A stretch of 64,000 nt of DNA, taken from NCBI RefSeq assembly GCF_009688965.1, contig NZ_AP021875.1, forward strand, positions 1,860,001-1,924,000, read 5' to 3'. The stretch's first letter is position 1. Every line of letters begins with the position of its first letter. The stretch is from Desulfosarcina widdelii. GTDB taxonomy: Bacteria > Desulfobacterota > Desulfobacteria > Desulfobacterales > Desulfosarcinaceae. The notes under the pieces were generated by a model. It saw nothing but the letters and a program-made list of their open reading frames with translations, was not told the origin of the DNA and made no database searches. Positions 33,119 to 52,018 of the stretch are shown here, piece after piece. The position numbers were made by a program, and so were the translations under genes.

Positions 33119-33393
33119 TTAGCTCGATTCTTTGTGAAACGTAACGATTAAGAGTTGTTGCGGCGCACAGCCGGCGCAAAATGTTTAGTTGAAACTTAAA
33201 AATTATACTGAATTCTGCTTTTTGTTACCAAAGCACCAAAAATTACAAATTTGAAAATCTTGCCTATGAATGGAGCACTTCGAAAAGGCTAAAGCCATCC
33301 TACTATAACCTACTGTGTTGTCAACATTTTCAATTAAATTTGGTTCTGGATCGCCTTTTGCTGAAAATATTGCCAAGCTGTATAACATGTCTA

Positions 33394-33439
33394 TCGCGGC
33401 ACTTATATTGAATTCAATATAATAATTCGCGGTACTTAT
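33394..33439. promoter_or_regulatory. 20-bp palindrome between two direct repeats
   Basis: TTATATTGAATTCAATATAA (33403-33422) is a perfect palindrome. It is flanked by near-identical 13-mers TCGCGGCACTTAT (33394) and TCGCGGTACTTAT (33427). It lies upstream of the cargo operon and downstream of the methylase gene, so an operator or a transcription end are both possible. Nothing else is visible in 33119-33490. Confidence 0.5.
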
Positions 33440-33490
33440 TTTGACGCTTTTTGAGCGTTTTGAACGGATGTATCATTGACTGTTTCAGAA

Positions 33491-34267
33491 TCAAAAATTA
33501 GAAACTAACAGTTCCCTGCCATTGGTTTGCTTTCCCTTAGAAACCGTATATTTCAAATCAACCGACCTAATTCCAAACCCGCTGAACACGTCCCGAATTT
33601 CCGGATGATCATTGATGCTCAAGATGAACTGGCTCTTAATCCCGGCCAGAACGTCCGCCATCTGCTGATAGTCGGACAACTCAAGATTGTGCTCGTAAAA
33701 CGGCGCCTTGTAGTAAGGCGGATCGCAATAAAACAGCGTCCCCGGCTTGTCGTACCGCCGGATAAAATCCTCCCAGGGCAGATGCTCTATCGTTACTCCT
33801 ACCAGCCGTAAATGGACCGCAGATAGCTCCTCCTCCATGCGCAAAAGGTTGATGCGCGGTGCATGCATGGGAGCCGTGCCATAGACCCGGCCTTTGACCC
33901 TCCCGCCGAAACAAAGCCGCTGCAGGTAATAATAGCGGGCCGCCCGCTGGATGTCGGTCAAACCGCCGGCAGCCTGCTGGCGCTTCCAATCCTCGAACCA
34001 TTCCCGCGACGAAAGCAACCATTTAAACTGCCTTAAAAACTCCTCCAAGTGGTTCTGCAGCACCCGGTAAAAAGCCACCAGGTCGCTGTCCAGATCATTG
34101 ATCACCTCATATTTCGATTCCGGCTTTTTAAAAAACACCCAGGCCGCGCCGGCAAATACCTCGCAGTAGGCTTTATGCTCGGGCATCATATCGATAATTG
34201 TTTTCGCCAGTTTCGATTTCCCGCCAATGTACGCTAATGGGCTGTTCACGGCCGCCTCCTTGTGCAT
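33491..34267 (-). CDS. Phage DNA adenine methylase, D12 class (copy A)
   Basis: The 258 residues are a D12-class N6-adenine methyltransferase: SAM-binding YIGGKSKLAKTIIDMMP (13-29) with FAGAAWVFF, and catalytic DPPY in FYCDPPYYKAPFYEHN (182-185). The start follows AAGGAGG-like sequence near the coding start ATG-CAC-AAG-GAG. It could protect phage DNA from host restriction, as mom does in Mu. A close homologue occupies the same place in prophage B (51203-52018). The two share neighbours: a 53-residue membrane protein and a structured element upstream. Confidence 0.9.
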   Translation of the reverse strand: MHKEAAVNSPLAYIGGKSKLAKTIIDMMPEHKAYCEVFAGAAWVFFKKPESKYEVINDLDSDLVAFYRVLQNHLEEFLRQFKWLLSSREWFEDWKRQQAAGGLTDIQRAARYYYLQRLCFGGRVKGRVYGTAPMHAPRINLLRMEEELSAVHLRLVGVTIEHLPWEDFIRRYDKPGTLFYCDPPYYKAPFYEHNLELSDYQQMADVLAGIKSQFILSINDHPEIRDVFSGFGIRSVDLKYTVSKGKQTNGRELLVSNF

Positions 34268-34318
34268 TCGAATCGACGTGTGATATTAAACCCGTGCGTT
34301 TGGTCCCTCCAGCGCACC

Positions 34319-34404
34319 GGGCCGTCTGATTTCAGATGTCTGGTTGTCCTCGAGCAGCCATTCGCCCCGGGGATGCTCCAACATCCACCGGGGCGGCCCA
34401 ACCC
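34319..34404 (-). ncRNA. Putative structured RNA element upstream of methylase copy A
   Basis: The segment can close with GGGCC/GGCCC arms around two hairpins: TCTGA/TCAGA, and CGCCCCGG/CCGGGGCG capped by GGATG/CATCC. The matching segment in prophage B (52025-52111) keeps all stems; one base pair changes from C-G to T-A on both sides, and the cap loop differs in sequence. It lies in the leader between the small membrane-protein gene and the methylase. Function (leader RNA, processing site or DNA structure) is unknown. Confidence 0.55.
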
Positions 34405-34407
34405 TTC

Positions 34408-34569
34408 CTAACTCGACCTGGCGGCCTTCACCGCCGCCTTGAGCCGGCGCTTGAGATCCTTGTCGGCGTTCAGAGCCTTGTTGAAATGTTTTTCATTGTT
34501 CCGGGCGATCAAAAAGGTAACGCCCACACCGATACCGATTCCCAATAAAATCCATCCTGCTGCTGCCAT
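34408..34569 (-). CDS. 53-residue membrane protein (copy A)
   Basis: One transmembrane helix (about 4-21, GWILLGIGIGVGVTFLIA) is followed by a basic helical tail (KDLKRRLKAAVKAARSS). The ATG at 34569 has a strong GAGGAGGG ribosome site. A homologue of identical length lies in prophage B at 52114-52275. Size and place next to tail genes would fit a holin-like or spanin-like role, but no lysozyme is adjacent; function is open. Confidence 0.7.
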   Translation of the reverse strand: MAAAGWILLGIGIGVGVTFLIARNNEKHFNKALNADKDLKRRLKAAVKAARSS

Positions 34570-34603
34570 TTTTCCCTCCTCTTGGTTGATGAATAAAACG
34601 CCT

Positions 34604-36490
34604 TTATTCAGGCCGTTTATAAATTTTTGCGCCCAGATTTTGCGTCCATCCAATCTCTTCGGAATACTGGGCGTACATGCTTTTGATGGCGGCCTCCAGG
34701 GCGCTCGAACGGCTCAGATTTGTCGGATTGACCCCATCCGTGCCATCGTCGAACCAATCCGCCTGGGCCATGATGTGGATCTCGTAGCTTTCCTCGTGAT
34801 CGACGTCGCCCGTGTAACTTCCATCGACCCAAATATCTCCGCCGCTCGCGGACTGGGTTGCCTTTTGGATCAGGATTCCGAAAATCTGAGTGATTATTGA
34901 TTCGTTGAATCGGGTCGCCTGGATGTAGGTCCCGTCAAGGACGAACGTTTGATTGACCGCATCCCAATGGTAGTCGGTCTTTTTTTCCTGATAGCAATAG
35001 GCATCGAATTCTCCCAAATTGATCGGCTCCGTCATGCCTAACGGGGTGTGTATCCGTAACTTCGATTGGCCCGTCCGCCATCGTTCCGCGTCGCACTCGA
35101 CGTCCGGTATCGAACCGGGATGAACCGTTGACGATTGTTGATAATAGACCCAATGCTCCAGCCGCATGATTCCGTAATGCTCCTGGTTGATCCGATCCCG
35201 GAGTCGCCGCGTGTAAAAGAAAAAATTGGAGTCGGAGAGCGCCGGCGCATTCGCGCCCAAATCCACGTTAATCGAATAAAAAAGCGACCGCGTGTCGTTA
35301 TAATCGGACGAGTTAAACGTCGGATTATACCAGACCCCTGACACATGGCTAGAGGCTCCCGCGCCCTCCATATATTCCGTGCAATAGGTTTCCGGCCATT
35401 CTCCGGATTGGGAAAGGGATTCATATTGCGTCATCTTGTATTCCCCGTCGTAATCGAACTCGGACGGGTATTCTCTCATCAAAAAATTAGAGTAGTTTAA
35501 CAGATCGTCAGGCCAATAAACTGTCCCAGGCTGGCCGCCCCAAGAACCTGTCTGAAGCCCATCGGTATCCACCGTCTGGTAGACCTGCTGAGAATCCGGC
35601 CAGTCCTCTTCGAACCGCTCGAAAAAAAGTTCCAGATCGTCCGAAGAGGCCGGCCATGTGACCCCTTCCAGCGTCGCATCATGGGCATAGTCGTCGGTTC
35701 TCGGGTCCCAGACGATATAGGCCCCATCCTGGCCGTCAGCCGCGACAACGATCACAACGAACTGATCGCCGCATGCCCTCGGCTCTTGCTTAAAACCGAT
35801 AACGGTCGCCTGGGCATCGGTACGATAGGGCTCCCATTTGACGATCACCGTGTCGCCATCCTCGAAGGCCGCAGCGTTGCAGGACATGTATTCAATGGGC
35901 ACGTCATCCAGGGCGTTGACCGCGTTGATGTCCAGATCCTGGATGCTGCTGAACAGCGGATCGAAAACCACCCGGCAGGTATTTTGGATCTCGTCGATAT
36001 TGTGGATCGTCGCGTATCGATAGGTCGGGCGCCATTTCTGGATGGCGGGCATGATGGCAAAATTCAGCATGGCGTCGGCCACCGGCAAGGTAAGGAAGGG
36101 AACGGCCTGCCCGTCCAGGGATTGTACCCAGACAGCGCCGTCATCGTAGCCCGGCCGGATGTTGATCCCGTTTTTCGCCTCGGCGCCGGGCTCGATGGTG
36201 CCGACCTCCCCGGTTAAGCCCTCGGTGAAATCCGCGCACCAGGCCGTGGTCCGATAGTCCATGTCTTCGATGATCGCATCCAGTTCGGCGATCCTTTTTT
36301 GAAGGGAGGATTTTCTCAATTGAAGTGCGGCCAGAATATTCGGATCGCTTTCTTCAGCGATTCGGGCATCTACGTTGGCCAGGGCCGCTGCGAGATGGCT
36401 GTGTTTTAATGCAGCCGCTGCGGTGTCATGCTTAACCTCGATGGTGTATTGCCCATCCCCGATCTCGTTTATGATCTCAGCTTTGCCCAT
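34604..36490 (-). CDS. Large phage virion protein, probably tail tip or fibre
   Basis: From the ATG that overlaps the preceding stop (TGATG) the protein has 628 residues. The N-terminus is beta-rich (GDGQYTIEVKHD), then a helical hairpin (about 30-75), then long beta-rich segments with many aromatic and acidic residues. There is no signal peptide. I do not recognise a named family. Its place behind the tape measure and three coupled genes suggests a tail-tip or receptor-binding component of the siphovirus-like tail. Confidence 0.65.
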   Translation of the reverse strand: MGKAEIINEIGDGQYTIEVKHDTAAAALKHSHLAAALANVDARIAEESDPNILAALQLRKSSLQKRIAELDAIIEDMDYRTTAWCADFTEGLTGEVGTIEPGAEAKNGINIRPGYDDGAVWVQSLDGQAVPFLTLPVADAMLNFAIMPAIQKWRPTYRYATIHNIDEIQNTCRVVFDPLFSSIQDLDINAVNALDDVPIEYMSCNAAAFEDGDTVIVKWEPYRTDAQATVIGFKQEPRACGDQFVVIVVAADGQDGAYIVWDPRTDDYAHDATLEGVTWPASSDDLELFFERFEEDWPDSQQVYQTVDTDGLQTGSWGGQPGTVYWPDDLLNYSNFLMREYPSEFDYDGEYKMTQYESLSQSGEWPETYCTEYMEGAGASSHVSGVWYNPTFNSSDYNDTRSLFYSINVDLGANAPALSDSNFFFYTRRLRDRINQEHYGIMRLEHWVYYQQSSTVHPGSIPDVECDAERWRTGQSKLRIHTPLGMTEPINLGEFDAYCYQEKKTDYHWDAVNQTFVLDGTYIQATRFNESIITQIFGILIQKATQSASGGDIWVDGSYTGDVDHEESYEIHIMAQADWFDDGTDGVNPTNLSRSSALEAAIKSMYAQYSEEIGWTQNLGAKIYKRPE

Positions 36491-37881
36491 CACCCGGCCT
36501 CGACCACATCGACGTATTGCCGCGTCGGTGACAGCAGGCAAACGATGCTGCCCACTGTCATCTCGTCAGACCCATAAACCGCAGTGTCTCCGGGCCGCAG
36601 ATAGAAATCGGGCTTGGCGCATCGGTACTGCCGACGGCCGTCGGCCATGACGGTTTCGGTTTTGACGCCTTTCAGGGCGACTACGCTCGGTGAGAGATAG
36701 GTCCGGGTCCGGTAGCCCACCAGCGTCATGCTTTGGCTGTTCCCGCCGCGATCTGTCCGGTCGCTGTAATAATCGACCCGGATCAGCTCTTCCCGCAAAA
36801 CCTCTTCGCCCTCGTCGACGGCCGCCATGTCGACCACGATCTCACCGTTCGGCCTGGCCGCGATTGCCGCAGCCGCCGCAGCCGTGTACACGATGGACAA
36901 TGCAAGATAGGATGGCTCTCCCGTTCGCATCCGCAGCTGGAGCGATTTCAAACCAGATAAATCGTAGTCCTCCAGCCCGTCCGCCGCTCCGGTCATGCGC
37001 GCATGATATCGGTAGATCAGCAGCAGGTCGCCGTATTGGGCCATCCATTTCGTCAAATTCAGCGCCCCGGCGGTCGCTCCGAACAAAATTCCTGCCTGGC
37101 CGTTGGCGTTGCGAACCAGACCGCCGCCGGCAACGGCGGAAAGAACGAAGCCGGCACTTCCACCGACCTGCTTTTCGAAATTAACGCCGGCAGTCGCCCC
37201 GAAAACCATCCCGGATGGGGCACTCTGGAAAGACGAAACTGTTTCGACTCCGGGCGCGTCGTTCAATGTGAACCCGGCCGTTCCCCCGACGCCATCAAAA
37301 CCGTCGGCGTAGACCACCGTGAAATTATCCCAGAGGCAATAGGTGTCAGTATAAGTGATGTCGCGGAACGTGAGATAAATCCAGATGTCATCGGTCGAGA
37401 CCGTGCGGGTCCACATGGTTTGCCAGAAATAGCCGTTATCGTACTTTTCCAGCTTTAAACTGCTTCCCGTCCGCGTCACACGCAGGGTTGCAACGGTATC
37501 GTTGTTTGACATGATTCCGGTAGTTCCCGGCGACCCGGAAACCCAAAAGTTGGCCGCATAATCATCGCCATAGGCCCCGAAAAAACCATAGTTGTTCGAG
37601 TCCATATAAAGATAAATAAACGACCGCTGCGCCGTGGAAGAATGTTGGGAGAAGTCCAAATCAACGGTGAACTGGAAGTTGCCGATGAGTTTGTAGTTGG
37701 TCCGGACGTTGGCATGCCGCCCGGAGGTCGAACTGGCGAACTGCTTGAGCTGGTTGCCGGAGATCTCGGAAACGCCGTCGGCAAGGGACAGCACGGAGAG
37801 CGCGGCATTTTCATCCCAGAACGCCGCGTTGGGGGCGTCGCCGTCCACACCGCTGAAATCATCGTTGCCGTAAACTGCCAT
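36490..37881 (-). CDS. Phage tail-tip protein with concanavalin-like N-terminal region
   Basis: The 463 residues begin with a beta-sandwich-like region (about 1-190; WDENAALSVLSLADG, FTVDLDFSQHSS, SFIYLYMDSNNYGFF) of lectin/LamG appearance. Gly/Ala-rich repeats around 200-280 (GGTAGFTLNDAPGV, GGSAGFVLSAVAGG, GQAGILFGATAGA) follow, then a C-terminal domain with ELIRVDYYSDRTDRGG. It is coupled at both ends to its neighbours (ATG overlaps). It probably forms part of the tail tip; binding to cell-surface glycans is only an inference from the fold impression. Confidence 0.6.
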   Translation of the reverse strand: MAVYGNDDFSGVDGDAPNAAFWDENAALSVLSLADGVSEISGNQLKQFASSTSGRHANVRTNYKLIGNFQFTVDLDFSQHSSTAQRSFIYLYMDSNNYGFFGAYGDDYAANFWVSGSPGTTGIMSNNDTVATLRVTRTGSSLKLEKYDNGYFWQTMWTRTVSTDDIWIYLTFRDITYTDTYCLWDNFTVVYADGFDGVGGTAGFTLNDAPGVETVSSFQSAPSGMVFGATAGVNFEKQVGGSAGFVLSAVAGGGLVRNANGQAGILFGATAGALNLTKWMAQYGDLLLIYRYHARMTGAADGLEDYDLSGLKSLQLRMRTGEPSYLALSIVYTAAAAAAIAARPNGEIVVDMAAVDEGEEVLREELIRVDYYSDRTDRGGNSQSMTLVGYRTRTYLSPSVVALKGVKTETVMADGRRQYRCAKPDFYLRPGDTAVYGSDEMTVGSIVCLLSPTRQYVDVVEAG

Positions 37882-38402
37882 TATGCGTCATCAGCTCCGG
37901 TGACCGTGACAAACACCTTGATGACATCGTCATCAGAAATTCCGGTGACCGCCCCGCCGGTAAACTGCACCACCGGACCAAGGATGGCGCCGGAAGCGGC
38001 CTGATCGCCCTTGGTATCGTCGGATACCAGGGCCGCGCCGTAAATGGTCGCATCGGTGCCGTCCATCGTGAACTCGGCCTTGGAGGAAGTGTTGCTGATG
38101 GACTTGCCCGATACGCCATCCTCCGACCAGGCCGGCCGGGTGCTTTCGTCGTATCCGTCGGACTCGGTAAATCCGGGCGATGCATAGGTATCGGTTGCCA
38201 CCGGTGTGTGATCGTCAGAAAACAGGAGGACATACCAGGCGGTTATCGGGGTGCCGCCCGACAATGACGCGTCAAGAACGTGGTTGATGAACTCGTCGGG
38301 GCAAAGGTTTTCTTCGATCCGCTCGGCCAGCATCTTGTCACCACGCCAATGCTGAACCACCCAACGGCTGCCGATGACAATTTTTTGATGAGAATTTTTC
38401 AT
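37881..38402 (-). CDS. Phage tail protein, 173 residues
   Basis: The ATG at 38402 overlaps the stop of the preceding gene (ATGA), which I prefer to the longer open frame. The sequence has a start KNSHQKIVIGSRWVVQHWRG and a beta-rich end, VIKVFVTVTGADDA, with FTMDGTDATIYGAALV. This pattern occurs in small tail proteins of transposable siphophages, but I cannot name a family. It is coupled to its downstream gene by a shared base at 37881. Confidence 0.6.
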   Translation of the reverse strand: MKNSHQKIVIGSRWVVQHWRGDKMLAERIEENLCPDEFINHVLDASLSGGTPITAWYVLLFSDDHTPVATDTYASPGFTESDGYDESTRPAWSEDGVSGKSISNTSSKAEFTMDGTDATIYGAALVSDDTKGDQAASGAILGPVVQFTGGAVTGISDDDVIKVFVTVTGADDA

Positions 38403-38749
38403 TGGATAAATTTCTCCGAAAAATAGATGGTGATCCTGGAAACGCCGTCGCGGGCGGCTTTCAAGCCATAGATGTAGCCGATATAAACACCGTCCCAGTA
38501 GGAGACCCGGATCTGGCTGGCGTTTTCGAACAACGACCGGATAACGGCGATATCGGTATCGGACAGCCGGCATTCGGCAACCAGGGTGCGGTCGATCTCG
38601 CTGACGCCGTAGTGAGAAAGTACGCCGCCGCCGTCCAGGGTCTTGTCCCGGCTGATTCGGGCAGTGTTTTCATAGGTCGCGGTGAGCTGATAGTTGCGGA
38701 TGCGCAGATGGCCGGCACTGTCGGCAGTGGTCTTGCTGACAAAAATCAT
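38399..38749 (-). CDS. Phage tail protein, 116 residues
   Basis: The ATG at 38749 overlaps the tape-measure stop (ATGA), giving 116 residues; the frame is open further upstream but inside the tape-measure gene. Segments include YGVSEIDRTLVAECRLSDTD and IRVSYWDGVYIGYIYGLKA. Order (directly after the tape measure) fits a distal-tail or tail-completion protein. No named family is recognised. Confidence 0.65.
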   Translation of the reverse strand: MIFVSKTTADSAGHLRIRNYQLTATYENTARISRDKTLDGGGVLSHYGVSEIDRTLVAECRLSDTDIAVIRSLFENASQIRVSYWDGVYIGYIYGLKAARDGVSRITIYFSEKFIQ

Positions 38750-41424
38750 GGCGCACCGCCAAGCAAAAGTTGATCGAGCCCCTCCTGGGTGGCCCGGATC
38801 TGAAGCCTTCTTAAAAATGTCCAGATAACCATCTCTATATCCGGCTCCATCCCATCGCAATTGACTGTGATCATGCTGTCCCCACGCTGAACAGCCTCGG
38901 CTTTTGCATCAACGTACTTGGCCTGGGCTTCGGTCAATTTTTTCTGGGATTCGAGGGCTTCGCGCTCAAGTGAAACTTGTTCTTTGAGGATGTCCTGTAA
39001 AAACCATTTCTCTGACATGGACCCTTCAAAGCCGGCCAGGTCGGAAAACATGCTGGAACTGGCGTCCGCGATGGCCGCAACGCTTTCGCCGGCGGCTTCA
39101 AAGGCTGCTTTCATAGTCTCGGCGTTGGCCTCGACCTCGGCGATATCGAGCTTGGCCTTGAACTCGATGGCTGTCTGAAGGGTTTCGGCTTGGGCCTTGA
39201 CCTGGGCGATCTGTAGATCGGTTTCGATTTCGAGGCGTTTGACGGCGGGGATGGCCTCTTCGATCTTTTCCTTTGCATTGTCGACCTGGGCGGTGTCGAC
39301 CGGTACGACAATCGTTTCCCACTGGCCTGTCTTCTCGCTGTAATATTCCAGCGTCTGCAGTTTTTTCTCTGCATCGGCCGTGTCGATATCGACGGCCTTT
39401 TCCTCTTCGACCAGGATGCCCAGTTCCCGCATCTTCTCGGTCAACTCGGCCGTGGAATCGACGGCGTCGTCCATGCTGTTGACCAGTGCCAGGTTATCTT
39501 CATAGGTGGTTTCTGCTGCATCCTCGGCCGCCTCGGCTCTTTCGGCCATTACCTGACTGAGCCGCTGCTCGACCTCGATGGCCTCCTGGCGGACGCGCTG
39601 GGCCTCTTCTTCTACCCCGAAGACGCCTGTGTATTTGTCGATGAATTTGAGTACGGACTGGGTGGCCGTGTCGACCTCGGGGACCAACTCGCGGTAAAGC
39701 GTACCGATCTCCCATCCAATGCCGAATGCGGCCGCCGCGCTACCAACTACCTTTAGCGCCGATGCGAGGCCGCCGGAACCCACCAGGGATGTGGTTAATT
39801 TGGCAACGGAACCGGTAGACAAAACATTGAGCACTCCGCCCATGCCCTTGATTGCTGTGGAAACGGTCGCAATCGGAACGGATATGGCCGTCACCGCTGC
39901 GCCGATGCCGGCAATATTCGCAGCGGTCGTTTTCGTGCCTTCATCGAGGGAGTTGAACCAGCCGATCAGATCGCCGATTCTTGCGGCAACGGCCACAAAG
40001 ATCTCGCCGAGCCCTTTGCTGAAGTCGACCAAACTTTCCAGCGAATCCACCACCCGCTGGATACCGTCGCGCAGGCTGTCCGCATCGCCGAAATCGATGT
40101 CGTCAAACAGGCTCGTGATGAGATCTTTTATCTCTCCCAGCGAATCCAGGAAACCGGAATAGTCAACGCCCTCCAGCGCCTCGGGCAGGTTTTCTGCAAT
40201 CTGTTCCAGCTTGGCTGCGATCCCATCGAGAAAATCGTTTAAGGCATCCAGGATCGGTTCGAAAGCGCCGGCGTCCACGGCATCCTCGAGGGCGTTCAAA
40301 ACGGCCGTGATGCCATCGACCGCACCGGTACCGGCCGTCTGGAAGTCGTCGCCAATGGAAGAGGAAAGATTCTTGAATCCCTGCACAAGCCGGTTGACCG
40401 CCACCTCCGGGTCTTTCAACCGCTCGGCCACCTCTTTGGCGGCGGACCCGGTCGCGTTCATGGCCACGGCGGTGATCTCGGTCGATTTGCTCAGGCCGTC
40501 GAACACCTCCACCATGCGGGCGCTCTGCTCGATACCCACCAGCTGCTGGGTGACGAACAGCTTCTGCGGCTCGTCAATCGTCTGGAAAGCCCTGGCCACA
40601 TCATAGAGAATATCCTTGCCGGACCGCAGCTGCCCGTTGGCGTCTTTTTGTGAAACGCCGATGGAGGCCAGGGCCTCCTGCACCGGTTTACTGTCGTCGA
40701 TAAGTTTGAGCAGGCCGGTTTTCAGGGCCACGGCCGCCTCGTCGCCGGACCGGAATACCTCGATCACAGGGGTGACGACGCCGGCGGTCTCCTCCATGGA
40801 AAAACCCATGGTGCGGGCGATGGGAGAAATCCCGGCCATGCCCCGGCCGAGCTGTTCGATGTCGGTGGCGTAGTTGTTGGAAACCTCGTTGAGGATGTCG
40901 ATCAGCCGCCGGGCATCCTCGGCCGGCGCCTTGAACCCCTTCAATGATGCGATCAGGATTTCGCTGGAGGCGGACGCTGCCAGTTCGCCGGCAATGACCA
41001 GGTCCATGCCGTCCTTGGCCAGGGTCATGGCCCCCTGGATATCGAAGCCGGCCTGTTTGTAGCTGGCCGTGGAACTGAGGACCGAGGCCGCCGACTCGCC
41101 GTATTCGTTGGACAGGCCCTTGGCACTGACCTTGGCGGTCTCCAGGGCCTGCACATTATCGCCGGCAACCTTTTTCAGTTCGGTGAAAGCGCTTTGAAGT
41201 TTGGAGGATTCGCTATAGGCATAGGCGATCCCCGCAGCGGCCATCGCCGCCAGTACCGCATCGAGTTTGACAACGGCGCTGGTCACAGCGGCGAACGGCT
41301 GGGCGATGTCGCGCACATTGCTGCCCAGACTGTCCATGTCCTGGCCCACGGCAGAAAACGTCGATCCCGTGCGATTGGTCGCCAGGATGAGCAGTTCGAT
41401 TTTTTTGGTCAGGCTGTTGGCCAT
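38746..41424 (-). CDS. Phage tail tape measure protein
   Basis: The 892 residues show the TP901-type tape-measure core: FTELKKVAGDNVQALETAK, GLSNEYGESAASVLSSTASY, LASIGVSQKDANGQLRSGKDI, FVTQQLVGIEQSARMVEVF. Hydrophobic segments around 510-590 (AANIAGIGAAVTAISVPIA, VVGSAAAAFGIGWEIG) are the usual membrane-spanning part. The C-terminal third is a long coiled coil. Length sets the tail length; 892 residues would give roughly a 130-nm tail by the usual 1.5 Å per residue rule (family knowledge). Gene order fits a siphovirus-like tail. Confidence 0.92.
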   Translation of the reverse strand: MANSLTKKIELLILATNRTGSTFSAVGQDMDSLGSNVRDIAQPFAAVTSAVVKLDAVLAAMAAAGIAYAYSESSKLQSAFTELKKVAGDNVQALETAKVSAKGLSNEYGESAASVLSSTASYKQAGFDIQGAMTLAKDGMDLVIAGELAASASSEILIASLKGFKAPAEDARRLIDILNEVSNNYATDIEQLGRGMAGISPIARTMGFSMEETAGVVTPVIEVFRSGDEAAVALKTGLLKLIDDSKPVQEALASIGVSQKDANGQLRSGKDILYDVARAFQTIDEPQKLFVTQQLVGIEQSARMVEVFDGLSKSTEITAVAMNATGSAAKEVAERLKDPEVAVNRLVQGFKNLSSSIGDDFQTAGTGAVDGITAVLNALEDAVDAGAFEPILDALNDFLDGIAAKLEQIAENLPEALEGVDYSGFLDSLGEIKDLITSLFDDIDFGDADSLRDGIQRVVDSLESLVDFSKGLGEIFVAVAARIGDLIGWFNSLDEGTKTTAANIAGIGAAVTAISVPIATVSTAIKGMGGVLNVLSTGSVAKLTTSLVGSGGLASALKVVGSAAAAFGIGWEIGTLYRELVPEVDTATQSVLKFIDKYTGVFGVEEEAQRVRQEAIEVEQRLSQVMAERAEAAEDAAETTYEDNLALVNSMDDAVDSTAELTEKMRELGILVEEEKAVDIDTADAEKKLQTLEYYSEKTGQWETIVVPVDTAQVDNAKEKIEEAIPAVKRLEIETDLQIAQVKAQAETLQTAIEFKAKLDIAEVEANAETMKAAFEAAGESVAAIADASSSMFSDLAGFEGSMSEKWFLQDILKEQVSLEREALESQKKLTEAQAKYVDAKAEAVQRGDSMITVNCDGMEPDIEMVIWTFLRRLQIRATQEGLDQLLLGGAP

Positions 41425-41427
41425 GGT

Positions 41428-41634
41428 TCAAGTCTTCAATTCTACCGCGCCATTTTTTTCCGGAACCGATGCCACAACATCCGCTCCGTCTCCGTCAGAT
41501 ACCCGTGAGGAAAAATATCGGGTATCACTTCGAAGAGAAATCGGTGCCCTCCGAATCCGCCTCCGGAGCACATGGTGAGGGCGTCCTGCACCCGAGGGGT
41601 GGCCCAGAGGCGTTCGATTCCCCCAGCGGCACAT
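41428..41634 (-). CDS. Tail assembly chaperone frameshift extension (probable)
   Basis: This frame overlaps the end of the preceding gene and runs to just before the tape measure. It lies +1 (equivalently -2) relative to the upstream gene. A GGGGG run on the minus strand (41624-41620) within the overlap is a suitable slip site. Most tailed phages, Mu included, make a chaperone and a frameshifted longer form from such a pair (established knowledge). The fused product would have about 208 residues. Confidence 0.55.
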   Translation of the reverse strand: MCRWGNRTPLGHPSGAGRPHHVLRRRIRRAPISLRSDTRYFSSRVSDGDGADVVASVPEKNGAVELKT

Positions 41635-42055
41635 GCCCCAGGGAAGTCAGCCGATTGATGGCGTTGAACAATTTAAGAAAAGAATCGATGTGAAATTCAG
41701 CCAGTCGCACCGCATCGCTCTGCTCCAGCTTTACCGATGCGCACCCGAACTGCACATAGGCGATGGCCTTGGCAAGTGCGTCCGGAACGCTGGACCCGCC
41801 AAGACCCAAAGCCTCGAGCGCCGCCTCAATGGCCTCGGCGCCCTTGCCGTCGGCCAGCTTTTTGACCAGCCCTTCGAGATTCTTGTTGACGGCCACGCGC
41901 TGCTCGGCCCGATAAACTTCCGGGCCGGTCAGGTTCTGGACGACGATTACCGGCTTTTCGTCATCGTCGAAAAAGGCGGCCAGGGCCGGAACCGGCACCG
42001 GTTCTGTACGCCGCTCGTATTCCGTCGTTCGGTATTTTTCGATATTAAACGGCAT
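41525..42055 (-). CDS. Tail assembly chaperone
   Basis: The 176 residues have the size, position (between tube and tape measure) and composition of a tail assembly chaperone: a start PFNIEKYRTTEYERRTEPVPV, then a helical body ending in SFLKLFNAINRLTSLG. A CGGAGGAGA ribosome site precedes the ATG. The last about 30 codons overlap the frame at 41428-41634, in which the frameshift extension is probably encoded. Confidence 0.7.
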   Translation of the reverse strand: MPFNIEKYRTTEYERRTEPVPVPALAAFFDDDEKPVIVVQNLTGPEVYRAEQRVAVNKNLEGLVKKLADGKGAEAIEAALEALGLGGSSVPDALAKAIAYVQFGCASVKLEQSDAVRLAEFHIDSFLKLFNAINRLTSLGHVPLGESNASGPPLGCRTPSPCAPEADSEGTDFSSK

Positions 42056-42076
42056 GTCTCCTCCGGAACATTCTCT

Positions 42077-43102
42077 CTACGATGAGAACTCCACCGACGG
42101 TTTTTCGCAGTAAATGGTGCAGCTGATCTTGTTGGGATTGCCCGAAGGAAACTCCCGGTCGAACGCCAGCAGCCCCTGGGTCAGCATGTAGGGCAGCTTG
42201 TTGGCGTCCGGCCACCATTTGACGGTCACCGTCTGGTTTTTCTCCCGCACGATGCCATCGGTGATGCCGTCTTTCACGTACAGGGTAAAAGAGGCGTCGC
42301 CGACCGAGTCGGCCTTCATCGATCCGATGGCGCCGGAAACGCCCGATCCCTCGTAGACGGCGGTGCTGGATTTGGTGACGCCCATCTCGGCCGGTTTGAA
42401 ATCGGCCACGTTCTGCTGAACCGTCAGGCTGGGTGTATAGAATTTGATGTACACCCGCTTGGCCGCAGGGCCGGTATGGATCGCCGGCAAGGGCGTATTG
42501 AATTTTATGTGGGCGTTTTTCTCAGCAGCCACTTCGGCGTAGCTGCCCTTGCCCACGTTGTGCTCCTCGAAGCCGGGAATGTCCGCATATTCGGCGTGAT
42601 CATTGGGCGCCTGGTAGATCTCGGACTCGGCAATGACGGCGCTGGACTGGCTGTTCATGCGAACCTGTCCCAGTTCGACGGCATCCTCCGGGATCAGCGG
42701 CGGGCCGCCGGCGGCGCCACGGGTTTCTGAAAACTCGGTACCCTCGGTGCCCTCGACTTCGTCCAGGCCGCCAACGTCGGTCATGATGATTGACGAAATC
42801 TTGAAATTTTCGGTGGACGGCCGGGTCACCGCCTGGCTGCCGGCCGCAACAGAGTGCTCGACGCCCTTGGAATAGGCCGTAAATGCGGCCACGGTCACCG
42901 TGTCGTTGGCTGCGTTGGGAGAAAGCACCCGCTGCCCGGTCACGATCCCGTTGGGCCGCACGTCGGGCTCGTATCCCGAGCGCCCGCTCCACAGGGCGCC
43001 AAGGTTGAAACGCTGGTGGTCGCCCGAGTCGGCCATAACCGAGAAGTCGGTCAGGGTGCGACTCAACTCGACCGCTACCTTTCCTCGTTGAGATGATGAC
43101 AT
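42077..43102 (-). CDS. Putative major tail (tube) protein
   Basis: The ATG at 43102 follows AAAGGAGATCGAA, so I take it over the frame's upstream ATG at 43123; the protein then has 341 residues. Text features: YEPDVRPNGIVTGQRVLSP, then VTVKWWPDANKLPYMLTQG and GNPNKISCTIYCEKPSVEFSS at the end. Its place before the chaperone and tape measure fits a tail tube protein. No tail-sheath gene lies next to it, which argues for a non-contractile tail. I cannot name the family. Confidence 0.6.
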   Translation of the reverse strand: MSSSQRGKVAVELSRTLTDFSVMADSGDHQRFNLGALWSGRSGYEPDVRPNGIVTGQRVLSPNAANDTVTVAAFTAYSKGVEHSVAAGSQAVTRPSTENFKISSIIMTDVGGLDEVEGTEGTEFSETRGAAGGPPLIPEDAVELGQVRMNSQSSAVIAESEIYQAPNDHAEYADIPGFEEHNVGKGSYAEVAAEKNAHIKFNTPLPAIHTGPAAKRVYIKFYTPSLTVQQNVADFKPAEMGVTKSSTAVYEGSGVSGAIGSMKADSVGDASFTLYVKDGITDGIVREKNQTVTVKWWPDANKLPYMLTQGLLAFDREFPSGNPNKISCTIYCEKPSVEFSS

Positions 43103-43160
43103 TTCGATCTCCTTTGGTTCCACAAGGGATGCCGTCCGGCGGCCCTTGCGAGGTTATTTG

Positions 43161-45032
43161 CTACGAACTGGTGTACTCGGCTTCTATGCGATAGTTCAGG
43201 CCGTAAACGAGCAGCGGGCCGGAGGCCATGATCAATCGTTCCCGCACCGGCCACAGCTCTCCCACGTTCTCCACGATTCTGCCGATCAGCCGGTCCCGCA
43301 CGGCCTCGATGATCAGGTGGCACGCCTCGGCGCCGTCCGCCCGGCTGCGGTGATTCTTGGCGATGAGCACAACCGTGAAGTTCATGGTGTGCTCGGCCAG
43401 GATTTCTTCCATCTTTCGGTCTTCGAAACTGGCCCCATCGTAAAGCACCCACAATGCCGGCAACCGCTTGGGATTGGTTTTCAATTCGTCGATATCCCCG
43501 GCGAACTGATCGACACCGCCGGCGGCTTCAGAAATGTCACCCAGGGCCGTGATGATATCGTCGATGCTTTCCTGGATCAGGGCGGTCAACTCCATTGGAT
43601 CGACGCCTTTTCCCCTGCCCGGTTCAAACAGATCGATGGGCGCCCAGCCTTTCAGGTATTTGCTGCGCTCCTGGGGCCGGCGGGCATATTCGTCCATCCA
43701 GTTGGCCACCATGCAATGGGCCATTTCCATTGTCAGGCACTTGCCACCCACCACTTTTTCGTAAACCTTGCGGTGGAGTTTTTCGCCGCGCATCAATCGC
43801 GGCGGCTTGTTGGCGATAGAGGTGCCGGTGTAGGTGGGCGCGTCGCGCTCCATTTCTGCCATAACGCCGAAAAAACGCTCCACGGTTTTGGATTGGCCGT
43901 GATACGCCCATGCAAATATGGTCTGGATGCCCAAATTGCTGTAGATGCCGGAAAGACCGGCCTGTTCGAGATCGGTATCGAGGCCGGTGCCCTGGAAGTA
44001 CTTGGATTTAAAGGCTTTGCCATTATCCAGATAGACCACGCGCGGGATCTTGCCCAGCATGAGGATCGCCCGGCGCAGCGCGACCGAAATGGCGACGGTG
44101 TTTTCCGTGGGGGCGATCTCCCAGCCGCAGGGCATGTTGGACCGCATGTCAAAAAACGTGATCAACTGCATCCGCTCGATCTTGCCGGTCCACGGATTCA
44201 GGATCTGGAAGTTGAGTTTATGGCCGTCGGCCACCAGGATGTCGCCCACGTTGATCAGTTCCGGATTGCGCTCGATGGAGTAGCAACAATTGTCGTTCCA
44301 GTATTTCTTGCCATGGCGCTGAAAACACCAGATGTCATAATTGTGGGCCTTGAAATCCATCAGCCAGCGCCGGTAGGTGTCCGGGCTGTGACCGTTGTCG
44401 ATTCCCAGTTCGGCCATGCGATTCTTGGCTTTGCGGATGATTTCGGAAATCAAACGCTTGTTGGGATGCAGGGCGATCTGGAGGATGACGGTGGCCTGCT
44501 GGGCGGTGACGATGGATTTGCCGCGCCGCCACCGGCCCCGGCGGTCGGAAAGATCGCCGCCGGCCCGAATGGTGCGCTTCCAGCCCTCGATGGTTTTCCA
44601 GGAGACCGGTCCGACGATGGCGTGGATCTCCTCGAAGATCAGTCCGGAATTGTATGCCAGGATAAAATTGTCACGGGCCACGGCCTTGTTGCCATGACCG
44701 GCGGCGGCCAGGGTGCGGGTGTATTGCAAAAGCAGGTCGGTCTTGGCACTGAATACGGCTTTTTGCTTCTCGGTCATCGCCGGTACCGGCGTTTTCTCCG
44801 GTGCGGCCATCGGAAGGCGGTTCGTGGATGCCGCCGGCAGGTTGCAAACCAGTTCCCTATTATAAAGGAGGCGGATGTCCTCGGGCAGGCTGTCGACGGG
44901 GTAATGCTTGATCTTGCCACCACGGCCGGTTGATAAGTTAAATTTCCAGCCCTCCTTAAGCGCCCGTTTTCTGGCCGCCCTGACGGTCACGCCAAGCAAG
45001 TTTGATATTTCTTTTGCCGTGAGTGCCTGCAT
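43161..45032 (-). CDS. Mu-type transposase fused in frame to a Gp37-like tail protein (deletion fusion)
   Basis: From ATG 45032 (GAGGA site) the product has 623 residues. Residues 1-479 are a MuA-like transposase: N-terminal HTH (ALTAKEISNLLGVTVRAARKRA), and the integrase core with D269 in ILVADGHKLNF, D336 in VVYLDNGKAF and E385 in KTVERFFGVM, so the catalytic triad is intact. At GRGKGVDP, near the start of the transposase C-terminal domain, the text switches to MELTALIQESIDDIITALGDI, then LPALWVLYDGASFED, the pattern of Mu Gp37 (DUF1834). The Gp37 part starts at a Met encoded at 43595-43593. MuB, other early genes and all head genes expected between are missing. A deletion has joined the two genes in frame. 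Confidence 0.85.
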   Translation of the reverse strand: MQALTAKEISNLLGVTVRAARKRALKEGWKFNLSTGRGGKIKHYPVDSLPEDIRLLYNRELVCNLPAASTNRLPMAAPEKTPVPAMTEKQKAVFSAKTDLLLQYTRTLAAAGHGNKAVARDNFILAYNSGLIFEEIHAIVGPVSWKTIEGWKRTIRAGGDLSDRRGRWRRGKSIVTAQQATVILQIALHPNKRLISEIIRKAKNRMAELGIDNGHSPDTYRRWLMDFKAHNYDIWCFQRHGKKYWNDNCCYSIERNPELINVGDILVADGHKLNFQILNPWTGKIERMQLITFFDMRSNMPCGWEIAPTENTVAISVALRRAILMLGKIPRVVYLDNGKAFKSKYFQGTGLDTDLEQAGLSGIYSNLGIQTIFAWAYHGQSKTVERFFGVMAEMERDAPTYTGTSIANKPPRLMRGEKLHRKVYEKVVGGKCLTMEMAHCMVANWMDEYARRPQERSKYLKGWAPIDLFEPGRGKGVDPMELTALIQESIDDIITALGDISEAAGGVDQFAGDIDELKTNPKRLPALWVLYDGASFEDRKMEEILAEHTMNFTVVLIAKNHRSRADGAEACHLIIEAVRDRLIGRIVENVGELWPVRERLIMASGPLLVYGLNYRIEAEYTSS

Positions 45033-45034
45033 GA

Positions 45035-45679
45035 TCAATCCTCGATAAAACGCCTCAACCGTTCGATGAACTCGATCACCTTTTTACGGTCGATCCCCTT
45101 GAAATTGTTTTTCTTGGCGGTAAAGAGTTTTTCCGTGATCGTCAGGAATGCTTCTACAAAGTCCTCGGGCAGTTCGCGTGCGGCCTGGGTGATTTTCGTT
45201 CCGGTCCGTTGGAGGGTGACACCCAATTTTTCGTTGACCAATTTCTTGACATGGGCGCCGGTGGGTTTTCCTTTCGGGGAGGTTTGGACGGCACGCTGCC
45301 AAACCTCGATCTGTTCTTCCGGTCCGGAAAGCTTCGCCATCGACCGGATCTGGCGTTCGTTTGATGGCAGGCAAAGAAACGGGCTGATATCCGAACCGGA
45401 AGGTGGATTTTGTAACCCATGGGTGACATTCTCGAACACATTGGCGGCATCGATCAATCGATAGGCGGTCTGCCTGGATATCCCGAACTTGGATTCCACA
45501 TAGACCTCAAAGGTCGGATGGGTTTTGCGATAATATTTTTCCCCATGGATTTCCCGCAGTGCGAGGCCGCTGTCGAAGGGGCCTTTCATGCCTTCGAAAA
45601 CGACCCTCTCAAGTTCCTCCAGACGGTTTTGTTCTTGCTCCGTCAATGGATCGACCACTTCAACTTCGCTGTTTCCCAT
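45035..45679 (-). CDS. Phage early DNA-binding protein (ParB/DUF3102-like)
   Basis: From the ATG at 45679 (AAAGGTGGT site) the protein has 214 residues. The segment FDSGLALREIHGEKYYRKTHPTFEVYVESKFGISRQTAYRLIDAANVFENV is a pattern I know from phage-encoded ParB-like or DUF3102-like proteins, with an HTH in SRQTAYRLIDAA. LPSNERQIRSMAKLSGPEEQIEVWQRAV is its usual continuation. It probably binds DNA. The C-terminus is basic. Its stop overlaps the transposase start region, so the two are coupled. Confidence 0.7.
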   Translation of the reverse strand: MGNSEVEVVDPLTEQEQNRLEELERVVFEGMKGPFDSGLALREIHGEKYYRKTHPTFEVYVESKFGISRQTAYRLIDAANVFENVTHGLQNPPSGSDISPFLCLPSNERQIRSMAKLSGPEEQIEVWQRAVQTSPKGKPTGAHVKKLVNEKLGVTLQRTGTKITQAARELPEDFVEAFLTITEKLFTAKKNNFKGIDRKKVIEFIERLRRFIED

Positions 45680-45692
45680 GTTCACCACCTTT

Positions 45693-45884
45693 TTATGCGA
45701 TACGGTTATCGATCATATGTTCAGGACAACCCTTCTTGCGCAGGTACGCCAGCACCCGTTCATCGTCCTCCTGGCCTCGTATGGTACGCCAGGTCGCCTC
45801 CATCGATGCGCCGGTAATCATCACCACGTCGCCGATGGAAATGTTATGTTCCCAAAGCCAGCTGGAGACCGCATTTCTAGCCAT
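45693..45884 (-). CDS. Small phage early protein, probable HTH
   Basis: The 63-residue protein (WLWEHNISIGDVVMITGASMEATWRTIRG) looks like a short helix-turn-helix of the kind found in transposable-phage early regions. Its start shares a base with the stop of the preceding gene, so the genes are coupled. A specific role is unknown. Confidence 0.55.
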   Translation of the reverse strand: MARNAVSSWLWEHNISIGDVVMITGASMEATWRTIRGQEDDERVLAYLRKKGCPEHMIDNRIA

Positions 45885-46153
45885 CAGGCCACCTTTTTCC
45901 TTTCGGGCCAGAATTTCTGACCCAGGCGCCGTTCGATAAAGTCCCGGATTTCCTGCGGCCGGCGCCTGCCGTTCACCACCTGCGAGATGTATTGCCGAGA
46001 CACCCCCAGTTCGTCGGCCCAGTCGGACATCTTTTCGCCCTTGCGCAGGGCAATGGAACGGATGCGCCTGGCGGTAACTTTCCGGCCGATGCTTTTTTCA
46101 TCGTCGCGGTCGTCTACATAAAGGGTGTAGGTGATTTTTCGTTTGCGGCTCAT
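45884..46153 (-). CDS. XRE-like DNA-binding protein (phage early region, Ner-like position)
   Basis: The 89 residues contain an HTH at about 40-62 (DWADELGVSRQYISQVVNGR), with a basic N-terminus and the end WPERKKVA. In Mu the small DNA-binding Ner sits between repressor and transposase and shuts down early transcription; this protein has a comparable place and size, but identity with Ner is an inference. Confidence 0.65.
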   Translation of the reverse strand: MSRKRKITYTLYVDDRDDEKSIGRKVTARRIRSIALRKGEKMSDWADELGVSRQYISQVVNGRRRPQEIRDFIERRLGQKFWPERKKVA

Positions 46154-46654
46154 CTAAAGCTCCGATTCGATTCTGCGGACAATCCGATTTTTCTCCTTGA
46201 TGTCCATTTTTGCCTTGGCCCATGAGAGCAATTTTTGTTCACGGTCGTCGACGATTCGAAGCCCCAACGGACGCGCCAGCGTCTCGATTACCGAACACCT
46301 CTCAACGGCGGCACAAAAAACGGGCAGCGCCTTCAAAGGGATGCTCCGGTTAAGTTCATTGGGATTGAGCCATTTTTCGAAGGTTTCGACGGTCAGGCGT
46401 TTGCAATTGCCACTGACCAGGCATACGCCGAAGCGTGCGGCCAAGTCGTTCATACGGTCCACGATCTGCTCTCGGGATAATCCGCATTCGCGGACATCGG
46501 TGTTCATGACCTGTTTGATCGGGCGGATCACATTCAGGGTGGGTTGGTCGAAGAGACCGAGTTGGATGGTGATGGGCTTGTTCATCTTGTCCGCCGATTC
46601 GATCCAGGTTGTCCGTTTTTTACGAAGACTCGGACATTGACATTCCGGGCTCAT
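46154..46654 (-). CDS. Phage early-region protein, unknown
   Basis: The 166-codon frame ends one base before the next start. The real start may be the ATG at 46585 (MNKPITIQLGLF). The text contains GLSREQIVDRMNDLAARFG and LPVFCAAVERCSVIETLARPLG. Its position as first gene of the leftward early operon, directly next to the operator region, suggests a regulatory or replication role; no family is recognised. Confidence 0.6.
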   Translation of the reverse strand: MSPECQCPSLRKKRTTWIESADKMNKPITIQLGLFDQPTLNVIRPIKQVMNTDVRECGLSREQIVDRMNDLAARFGVCLVSGNCKRLTVETFEKWLNPNELNRSIPLKALPVFCAAVERCSVIETLARPLGLRIVDDREQKLLSWAKAKMDIKEKNRIVRRIESEL

Positions 46655-46689
46655 CTAAATTAGAGTAAGACCGTCGCTAACTTGTATAG

Positions 46690-46742
46690 CACTAAAAATA
46701 GTTATAGGCCCTATTTTTCGGTATGTCAACCCGATTTTTAGG
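46690..46742. promoter_or_regulatory. Operator array between repressor and early genes
   Basis: Three near-palindromic 13-mers lie in the divergent gap: CACTAAAAATAGT (46690), CCCTATTTTTCGG (46709) and CCCGATTTTTAGG (46730), spaced 19 and 21 bp, about two helical turns. A fourth, CCCTAAAAATAGG, lies inside the repressor gene at 46941-46953. They are good candidates for repressor binding sites controlling both directions. Confidence 0.65.
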
Positions 46743-46810
46743 TTCCTGCTAATTTTTCCAGCTCTTCCGACCTGTACCAATTACAACTTAATGGAATATT
46801 TGAAGAAAAA

Positions 46811-47404
46811 ATGACAGTTCCTACTTCGAAAACCGGTTCCCACTTTAGTTCCGACTTTCATAAAGAAAGTGGGAACCCAGATTTCGGAAAAAGACTGACC
46901 TCAAAAAGAAAGCTTATAGGGTTGAGTCAGGATGCATTAGCCCTAAAAATAGGAACAAGTAAAAGCACTGTACAAAGGTATGAAAAAGGAGAGCTTCCAA
47001 AAGGCGACAAGCTTTTAGCATTATCTTTTACCCTTGATTGCTCATTAGATTGGCTACTTAAAGGCGAGGGAGGCCCAAGCGAGCCATTTATTGATGATGA
47101 AAAGGCACCTACCAACAACATCCACGACTCGCAAAATTTTCACATTATTCAGGAATTCGAAGATCAAGAATTCGCGCTGGAGATCAACCAGGCCCTCATG
47201 GTCATGGAAAAAACCTCCTTAAAGGAGTTTTACAAGCTGGGAGGGTATATCAAGGCCCTGTCGGGAAGCGGGATCGAGATACGTACTGATTATAGCGGTT
47301 CCCAGAATAAGCAATATGATTCCGATGTCTGGGATGGCACCGAACGCAGATCGGGGAAAGATCGTCGCAAAACAGTAGGTAAAACTGACGTCAACCCGGA
47401 ATAA
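46811..47404 (+). CDS. XRE-family phage repressor
   Basis: The 197 residues have an HTH at about 28-70 (GKRLTSKRKLIGLSQDALALKIGTSKSTVQRYEKGELPKGDKLL) followed by LDCSLDWLLKGEGGP, a sequence common in phage CI-like and Mu-type repressors. The C-terminal half is helical, with WDGTERRSGKDRRKT near the end, a basic motif found in several regulators. There is no S24 peptidase domain, so it is not a LexA-type self-cleaving repressor. It is divergent from the leftward early genes with operator-like sites between. Confidence 0.8.
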   Translation: MTVPTSKTGSHFSSDFHKESGNPDFGKRLTSKRKLIGLSQDALALKIGTSKSTVQRYEKGELPKGDKLLALSFTLDCSLDWLLKGEGGPSEPFIDDEKAPTNNIHDSQNFHIIQEFEDQEFALEINQALMVMEKTSLKEFYKLGGYIKALSGSGIEIRTDYSGSQNKQYDSDVWDGTERRSGKDRRKTVGKTDVNPE

Positions 47405-47892
47405 TAATACTCTGCCAGGATAGGTAATCTAAAATAGTGCTCAATTATCATTGCTCTCCTTAAATAAACCTTGGTTCAGTAAAAATCCGGAATACTGTTT
47501 AAATTTCTGGCTGAACCTGTTTTTGTTTTGAAATCTCGAAAGGGTAACGATTTGCCCTAAAATTGGCTCATTTTTTAGCGAAAAGTTGGTTCCGGGTAAT
47601 TCTTTTCAAACGCAGTATAGTTTTCTCTCCAACTATTTAATTCAAAATATTATTTATTTGATTCCGGACACAGATTGCTGGTTCCGGTTATAGTCACGAG
47701 CACAGATGGAAATGCCTGGAACCGGCGCGAAATCAATAAAAGGTTTTCTGAAGCGATCTATCACTTTTGGCATAGGATAGTTACAATTGGGAAGGCTGTT
47801 TTTCGATATTTGTGTTGTTACCGAACTCAATTGGTAAAAATCATGATCTTATGAGTGAATTCCAGCAAAACTATAGAGGGAAGGCCTTCAAT
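47405..47892. other. AT-rich intergenic stretch
   Basis: I see no gene or clear structure here. GGTTCCGG-like words recur (near 47592, 47683 and 47717), and the stretch probably holds the promoter of the following pair. Confidence 0.5.
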
Positions 47893-51202: not shown

Positions 51203-52018
51203 CTAATAATTTGTGATCAACAGCTCCCTACCGGCGGTCTGCTTGGCCTTCGATACAGAATATTTCAAAACCACCGGTCTGATTTCGAACCGGCTAAAAA
51301 CCTTCCGAATTTCCGGATGGTCGTTGATGCTCAAAATGAATTTGCCGTCTATGGTTGCGAGAACGTTGGCCATTTGCTTGTAGTCGCCGAGTTCCAAATT
51401 GTGCTCGTAATACGGCATTTTGTAATATGGCGGATCGCAATAAAACAGCACCTCCGGACGGTCATATTTGCCAACAAAAACGTCCCAGGTAAGGTGCTCG
51501 ATGGTAACGCCGACCAGGCGAAGGTGAACAGCTGACAGTTCCTCCTCGAGGCGCAACAGGTTAATCCGAGGCGGATGCATGGGGCCGGCCCCAAACGTGC
51601 GGCCCTTAACCCGTCCTGCGAAGCAAAGACGCTGCGTGTAATAATAACGGGCGGCCCGCTGAATGTCGGTCAGGCCGCCAGCAGCTTGCTGGCGCTTCCA
51701 GTCCCCGAACCATTCTCGAGACGATAAAATCCATTTAAACTGCTTTAAAAATTCTTCGAGATGGTTCTGCAGCACCCGATAAAAAACGACCAAATCACTA
51801 TCAAGATCATTGATCACTTCGTATTTCGAAAAAGGCTTTTTGAAAAACACCCAGGCCGCTCCCGCAAAGACCTCACAATAGGATTTGTGATCGGGCATCA
51901 TGTCGATAATGGTTTGAGCCAATTTCGACTTACCACCAATATACGCTAATGGGCTGTTCACGGCCGTCTCCTTGTGTATTTGAATCAACGTGTGATATAG
52001 CCCTGATGCTTCACCCAA
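51203..52018 (-). CDS. Phage DNA adenine methylase, D12 class (copy B)
   Basis: The 271-codon frame is a close homologue of the methylase at 33491-34267, with YIGGKSKLAQTIIDMMPDHK and catalytic DPPY in FYCDPPYYKMPYYEHN. In copy A translation starts at ATG-CAC-AAG-GAG; here that codon is ATA (IHKETAVNSP), so the start must be another codon, perhaps the ATG at 52018, 15 codons upstream. It may modify phage DNA against host restriction. Confidence 0.88.
   Translation of the reverse strand: MGEASGLYHTLIQIHKETAVNSPLAYIGGKSKLAQTIIDMMPDHKSYCEVFAGAAWVFFKKPFSKYEVINDLDSDLVVFYRVLQNHLEEFLKQFKWILSSREWFGDWKRQQAAGGLTDIQRAARYYYTQRLCFAGRVKGRTFGAGPMHPPRINLLRLEEELSAVHLRLVGVTIEHLTWDVFVGKYDRPEVLFYCDPPYYKMPYYEHNLELGDYKQMANVLATIDGKFILSINDHPEIRKVFSRFEIRPVVLKYSVSKAKQTAGRELLITNY

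Follow-up and report, generated by a model that had tools for sequence, protein, structure and literature searches.

We show here that an open reading frame of 623 codons in the genome of Desulfosarcina widdelii joins the N-terminal two-thirds of a Mu-type transposase in frame to a Gp37-like tail-terminator gene, and that the two genes are separate in a related prophage elsewhere in this genome. It is very probable that an illegitimate deletion of about 17.1 kb in a Mu-like prophage made this fusion by accident and left a dead remnant, in which the fused frame would be a passive scar. The frame lies in a stretch of 64,000 nucleotides, referred to as the window, and the element that carries it is referred to as the window element (Table 1).

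The fused frame is open from an ATG at position 45032, and a TTG is also present two codons upstream. In an hmmscan search, residues 2-473 were assigned to phrog_310, a transposase family, and residues 511-584 to the Pfam family Phage_tail_terminator (PF23840); because these two matches lie in one open frame of 623 codons, the transposase-tail chimera is real and not a reading artefact. A preliminary description of this DNA had proposed a Mu-type transposase in frame with a Gp37-like tail gene, which the family matches and the alignment described below confirm, and had called D269, D336 and E385 intact, and all three are found at exactly these residues. Together with the phrog_310 match and a match of the family profile to MuA in the PDB, they identify the N-terminal part as a DDE transposase of the MuA family. 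However, it is not a complete transposase, as the Pfam domain Mu-transpos_C was not found in the fused frame, while the transposase of the related prophage, prophage A, has a match at residues 487-542. The claim that the transposase core is kept therefore holds for the three acidic residues but not from the beta-barrel onward, where the protein is cut off. The proposed start of Gp37 at a methionine at codon 480 was also mistaken, as Met480 is a transposase residue that in prophage A lies within GVDPMELTALM. The unfused Gp37 of prophage A also matches the Pfam family Gp37, weakly and below the cut-off.

Table 1. Features of the window element (positions in the window)
Feature	Position	Strand	Remarks
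Fused ORF, 623 aa	43161..45032	minus	transposase residues 1-485, Gp37/tail-terminator from residue 486
Transposase part (end-binding and DDE catalytic domains)	43587..45032	minus	without Mu-transpos_C beta-barrel and C-terminal domain
Gp37/tail-terminator part	43161..43575	minus	own ATG replaced by CTG
Deletion junction ACCGCC(C/A)TGAT	43576..43586	minus	10/11 bases common to both original sites
Early genes upstream of transposase	45035..46654	minus	match prophage A
Repressor-like HTH gene	46811..47404	plus	58% identical to that of prophage A
Left-end region kept in common with prophage A	47440..47575		putative end
Tail module (348-aa protein phrog_30644, tape measure, later tail genes)	34604..43123	minus	open frames
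DNA adenine methylase-like (dam) gene, last of element	33491..34267	minus	homology to relatives ends at stop codon

Prophage A, which lies in the opposite orientation and is 94-97% identical to the window element around the junction, encodes a transposase of 712 aa from its ATG (887178-889316) and, as a separate gene of 139 aa that is closely preceded by an in-frame TGA, Gp37 (905723-906142). When the window's own genome was searched, the transposase DNA matched 887178-888634 with 94% identity and the gp37 DNA 905717-906142 with 97% identity. In the alignment of the two elements, window positions 33491-43586 correspond to 915812-905717 of prophage A and window positions 43576-47575 to 888634-884582, and the 17,093 bp in between (888635-905727) have no counterpart in the window element. 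This undeleted relative defines both breakpoints and gives both original gene ends, for which a comparison with an intact relative had been proposed, and its two unfused genes with 17.1 kb between them support the earlier suggestion that the fusion arose by deletion. The dN/dS between the two elements is 0.06 for the transposase part and 0.12 for the gp37 part, and the repressors are only 58% identical, which indicates that the elements are two separate phages and not a recent duplication. The synonymous divergence from prophage A is uneven, ranging from 0.02 for the 348-aa gene to 0.56 for the methylase gene (window 38746-43123 and 33491-34267), which suggests mosaic exchange between the two phages.

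At the level of single bases, the original site in the transposase gene is ACCGCCCTGAT and the one spanning the start of gp37 is ACCGCCATGAT; the window reads ACCGCCCTGAT at 43586-43576, followed by gp37 sequence. Alignment with the unfused genes of prophage A places the switch inside the TGAT at 43579-43576; the ATG of gp37 has become CTG, read as Leu485, and gp37 sequence starts at Ile486. A random crossover between these two regions of prophage A would fall on a match of at least 10/11 bases with a probability of about 0.0002, and on an exact match of at least 4 bases with a probability of about 0.02. We infer illegitimate recombination at a microhomology, which would leave a junction of this kind. 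The join kept the reading frame, a one-in-three chance, and this was counted against a deletion scar, as two-thirds of random joins would have broken the frame.

A genome that contains several related prophages can be assembled wrongly, and the join could in principle be a chimera or a collapse of two prophage copies at a locus that in fact holds an intact prophage. The join is known from one assembly, and the only other public copy that we found is a record in a virus collection (viral_contigs), which was the only match there to the exact 28-base junction, includes the neighbouring prophage B as well and evidently comes from the window's own genome. However, the flanks differ from prophage A on both sides, with 94% identity over 43576-45032 and 97% over 43161-43586 and a synonymous divergence of about 0.1-0.25, so that neither is simply a piece of prophage A; a collapse at the join appears unlikely because both sides differ from prophage A by several percent. 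In addition, the genome is a single contig of 7.3 Mb, and a match of 10/11 bases is far too short to mislead a long-read assembler. An assembly error of either kind is hence very improbable. The fusion was absent from 60 relatives, from 30 genomes of the family, a set that overlaps with the first, and from the genome, virus and phage collections searched; all related transposases are unfused, in stop-to-stop frames of mostly 703-790 aa with one of 900. In the collections searched, the fusion is therefore not a normal gene of many phages, an outcome that would have spoken against the preliminary description. One candidate for a second fusion (L047), with a match extending to residue 572, was rejected, as it is a plain transposase of 767 aa.

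By position and family, the stretch of prophage A that is missing from the window element encodes the transposase beta-barrel and C-terminus, a MuB-like AAA ATPase (phrog_296, 889355-890107), GemA, a DUF3164 protein, an endolysin (GH108) and a holin-like protein, followed by Gp27/small terminase, large terminase, portal, a head-gene remnant, protease, decoration protein, capsid E, Gp36 and a Phage_tail_S (tail-completion) protein. No match to MuB was found in the window element, nor to the Gp27, terminase, capsid and Gp36 of prophage A or the portal and protease of the prophage in the related genome G004. It had been claimed that genes normally found between the transposase and gp37 are missing here, and they are indeed present in prophage A or in the prophage of G004 and absent from the window element. 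What remains is a repressor-like gene, early genes, the fused frame, the tail module and the DNA methylase gene, with the gp37 part followed by the 348-aa gene and the tape-measure gene, the same as in prophage A.

These findings are consistent with the following course of events. A Mu-like transposable prophage, of about 31 kb if equal in size to prophage A, would have been resident in the genome and would have lost about 17.1 kb internally by illegitimate recombination between the short similar sequences in the transposase gene and at the gp37 start. The reading frame would have happened to survive the join, giving the fusion of transposase and tail terminator. In MuA, most insertions in IIbeta and IIIalpha abolish activity, and IIIbeta contacts MuB (PMC3362531); family profile positions 499-558 align with the equivalent part of MuA in structures 4fcy and 1bcm. 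We predict that the fused protein is inactive in transposition, because the beta-barrel and the C-terminal domain, which MuA needs, and the partner ATPase are lost. Lysis, packaging and head genes are also gone and, judged from its gene content, the element would neither transpose nor make particles and would be a dead remnant.

With open tail genes and no head genes, such a remnant could also have been kept as a tailocin-like phage-tail particle of which the fused gene product forms part. However, the endolysin and holin-like genes lie inside the deleted stretch, which leaves the element without a release system, Gp36 and the tail-completion gene are missing as well, and the tail terminator would have to bear a transposase of 485 residues at its N terminus, in an arrangement that no relative has. 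We therefore regard a tailocin-like role as highly unlikely.

Under the deletion reading, the event looks recent. When changes were polarised with prophage B, the transposase part was found to have acquired 5 amino-acid and 26 silent changes on the branch of the window element and 2 amino-acid and 17 silent changes on that of prophage A; the deletion looks recent because the amino-acid changes on the window branch are few and none of them alters an invariant residue. Much of the divergence between the two elements probably predates the deletion. The open frames and a dN/dS well below 1 also fit continued use.

The window element is, on the sequence evidence, one of several decaying relatives, as prophage A has a portal deletion and a further element lacks nearly all structural genes. 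Compared with the prophage of G004, about 1.5 kb are missing from prophage A, and the portal gene is joined out of frame to a minor head (gpF-like) gene (L007:5023-7026, corresponding to G000 901022-903025). The further element, element C (G000 6484950-6499247, L010), consists of a transposase, a MuB-like ATPase, GemA, small terminase and a 92-aa ORF, followed by a methylase gene. By eye, it also contains two host-like ORFs, one of which resembles a cobaltochelatase. Prophage B, which is Mu-like and in the same orientation as the window element, extends from window position 51203 to about 92300 in the same numbering, past the end of the window; from length and order it apparently has the full gene set, with a tail that by eye is of a different type.

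The boundaries of homology between the window element and prophage A are position 47575 and the stop codon of dam (33491). In six dam copies of the window's genome, homology ends at this codon or slightly before it. Two further dam-like gene ends (G000 3123133 and 2226604; L070 and L072) had no linked transposase of the family of the fused frame in our searches. The statement that the prophage keeps its ends is not established by these homology boundaries: the left ends of the two elements and all right ends beyond dam were compared, and fuzzy motif searches and scans for 5- and 6-bp duplications were made, but neither a 5-bp target-site duplication nor a shared terminal motif was found. Two loci compared for an end (L040 and L054) share the same flank and thus give none. 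A TGAGC at 33452 was considered as the right end and dropped, as homology to G004 runs past it to 33477. That homology covers 285 bp beside the remnant (33193-33477), 82% identical to G004 662367-662653, where it lies next to an integrase-like gene. In a search for an empty site in relatives, G004 had only a short match to the left flank, next to an unrelated integrase-like gene, and the right flank had no match in any genome of the same genus.

A further idea is that the host expresses the fusion and uses it as a protein that binds element ends without transposing, which would restrain the related prophages A, B and C of the same genome in a dominant-negative manner. The fusion retains the N-terminal (end-binding) and catalytic regions, with unchanged invariant residues, and the apparently complete prophage B is 3.6 kb away. 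Against this, no conserved end sites were identifiable to which such a protein could bind, the repressors of the window element and prophage A differ, the transposases of prophages B and C are 82% and 66% identical, respectively, to that of prophage A, and no other genome keeps such a fusion. We give this role, too, only a very small chance.

Our analysis points to an ordinary deletion in a prophage, with a fusion that is in frame by accident, and would provide a clean, base-resolved example of the death of a transposable prophage by microhomology deletion. It also cautions that an in-frame chimeric gene need not mean a new protein family, as automatic annotation of the fused frame could create a false entry for a transposase with a tail domain. 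Compared with the 663-aa MuA of phage Mu, the fused frame has the same DDE core, with D269 and D336 at equal numbers and the third acidic residue at E385 instead of E392 (PMC3362531); however, it stops before the beta-barrel (IIbeta) and domain III and goes on as a tail protein. Similarly, its second part resembles the Gp37/tail terminator of Mu-type phages in its PF23840 match and in its position before the 348-aa and tape-measure genes, but it has lost its own start codon and is fused behind a transposase. Finally, with an internal deletion that leaves the regulator, early genes and tail module, the element resembles the general kind of defective (cryptic or 'grounded') prophages (PMC6379469, PMC7744054), and differs from them in that the join is in frame and a close relative without the deletion is present in the same genome.
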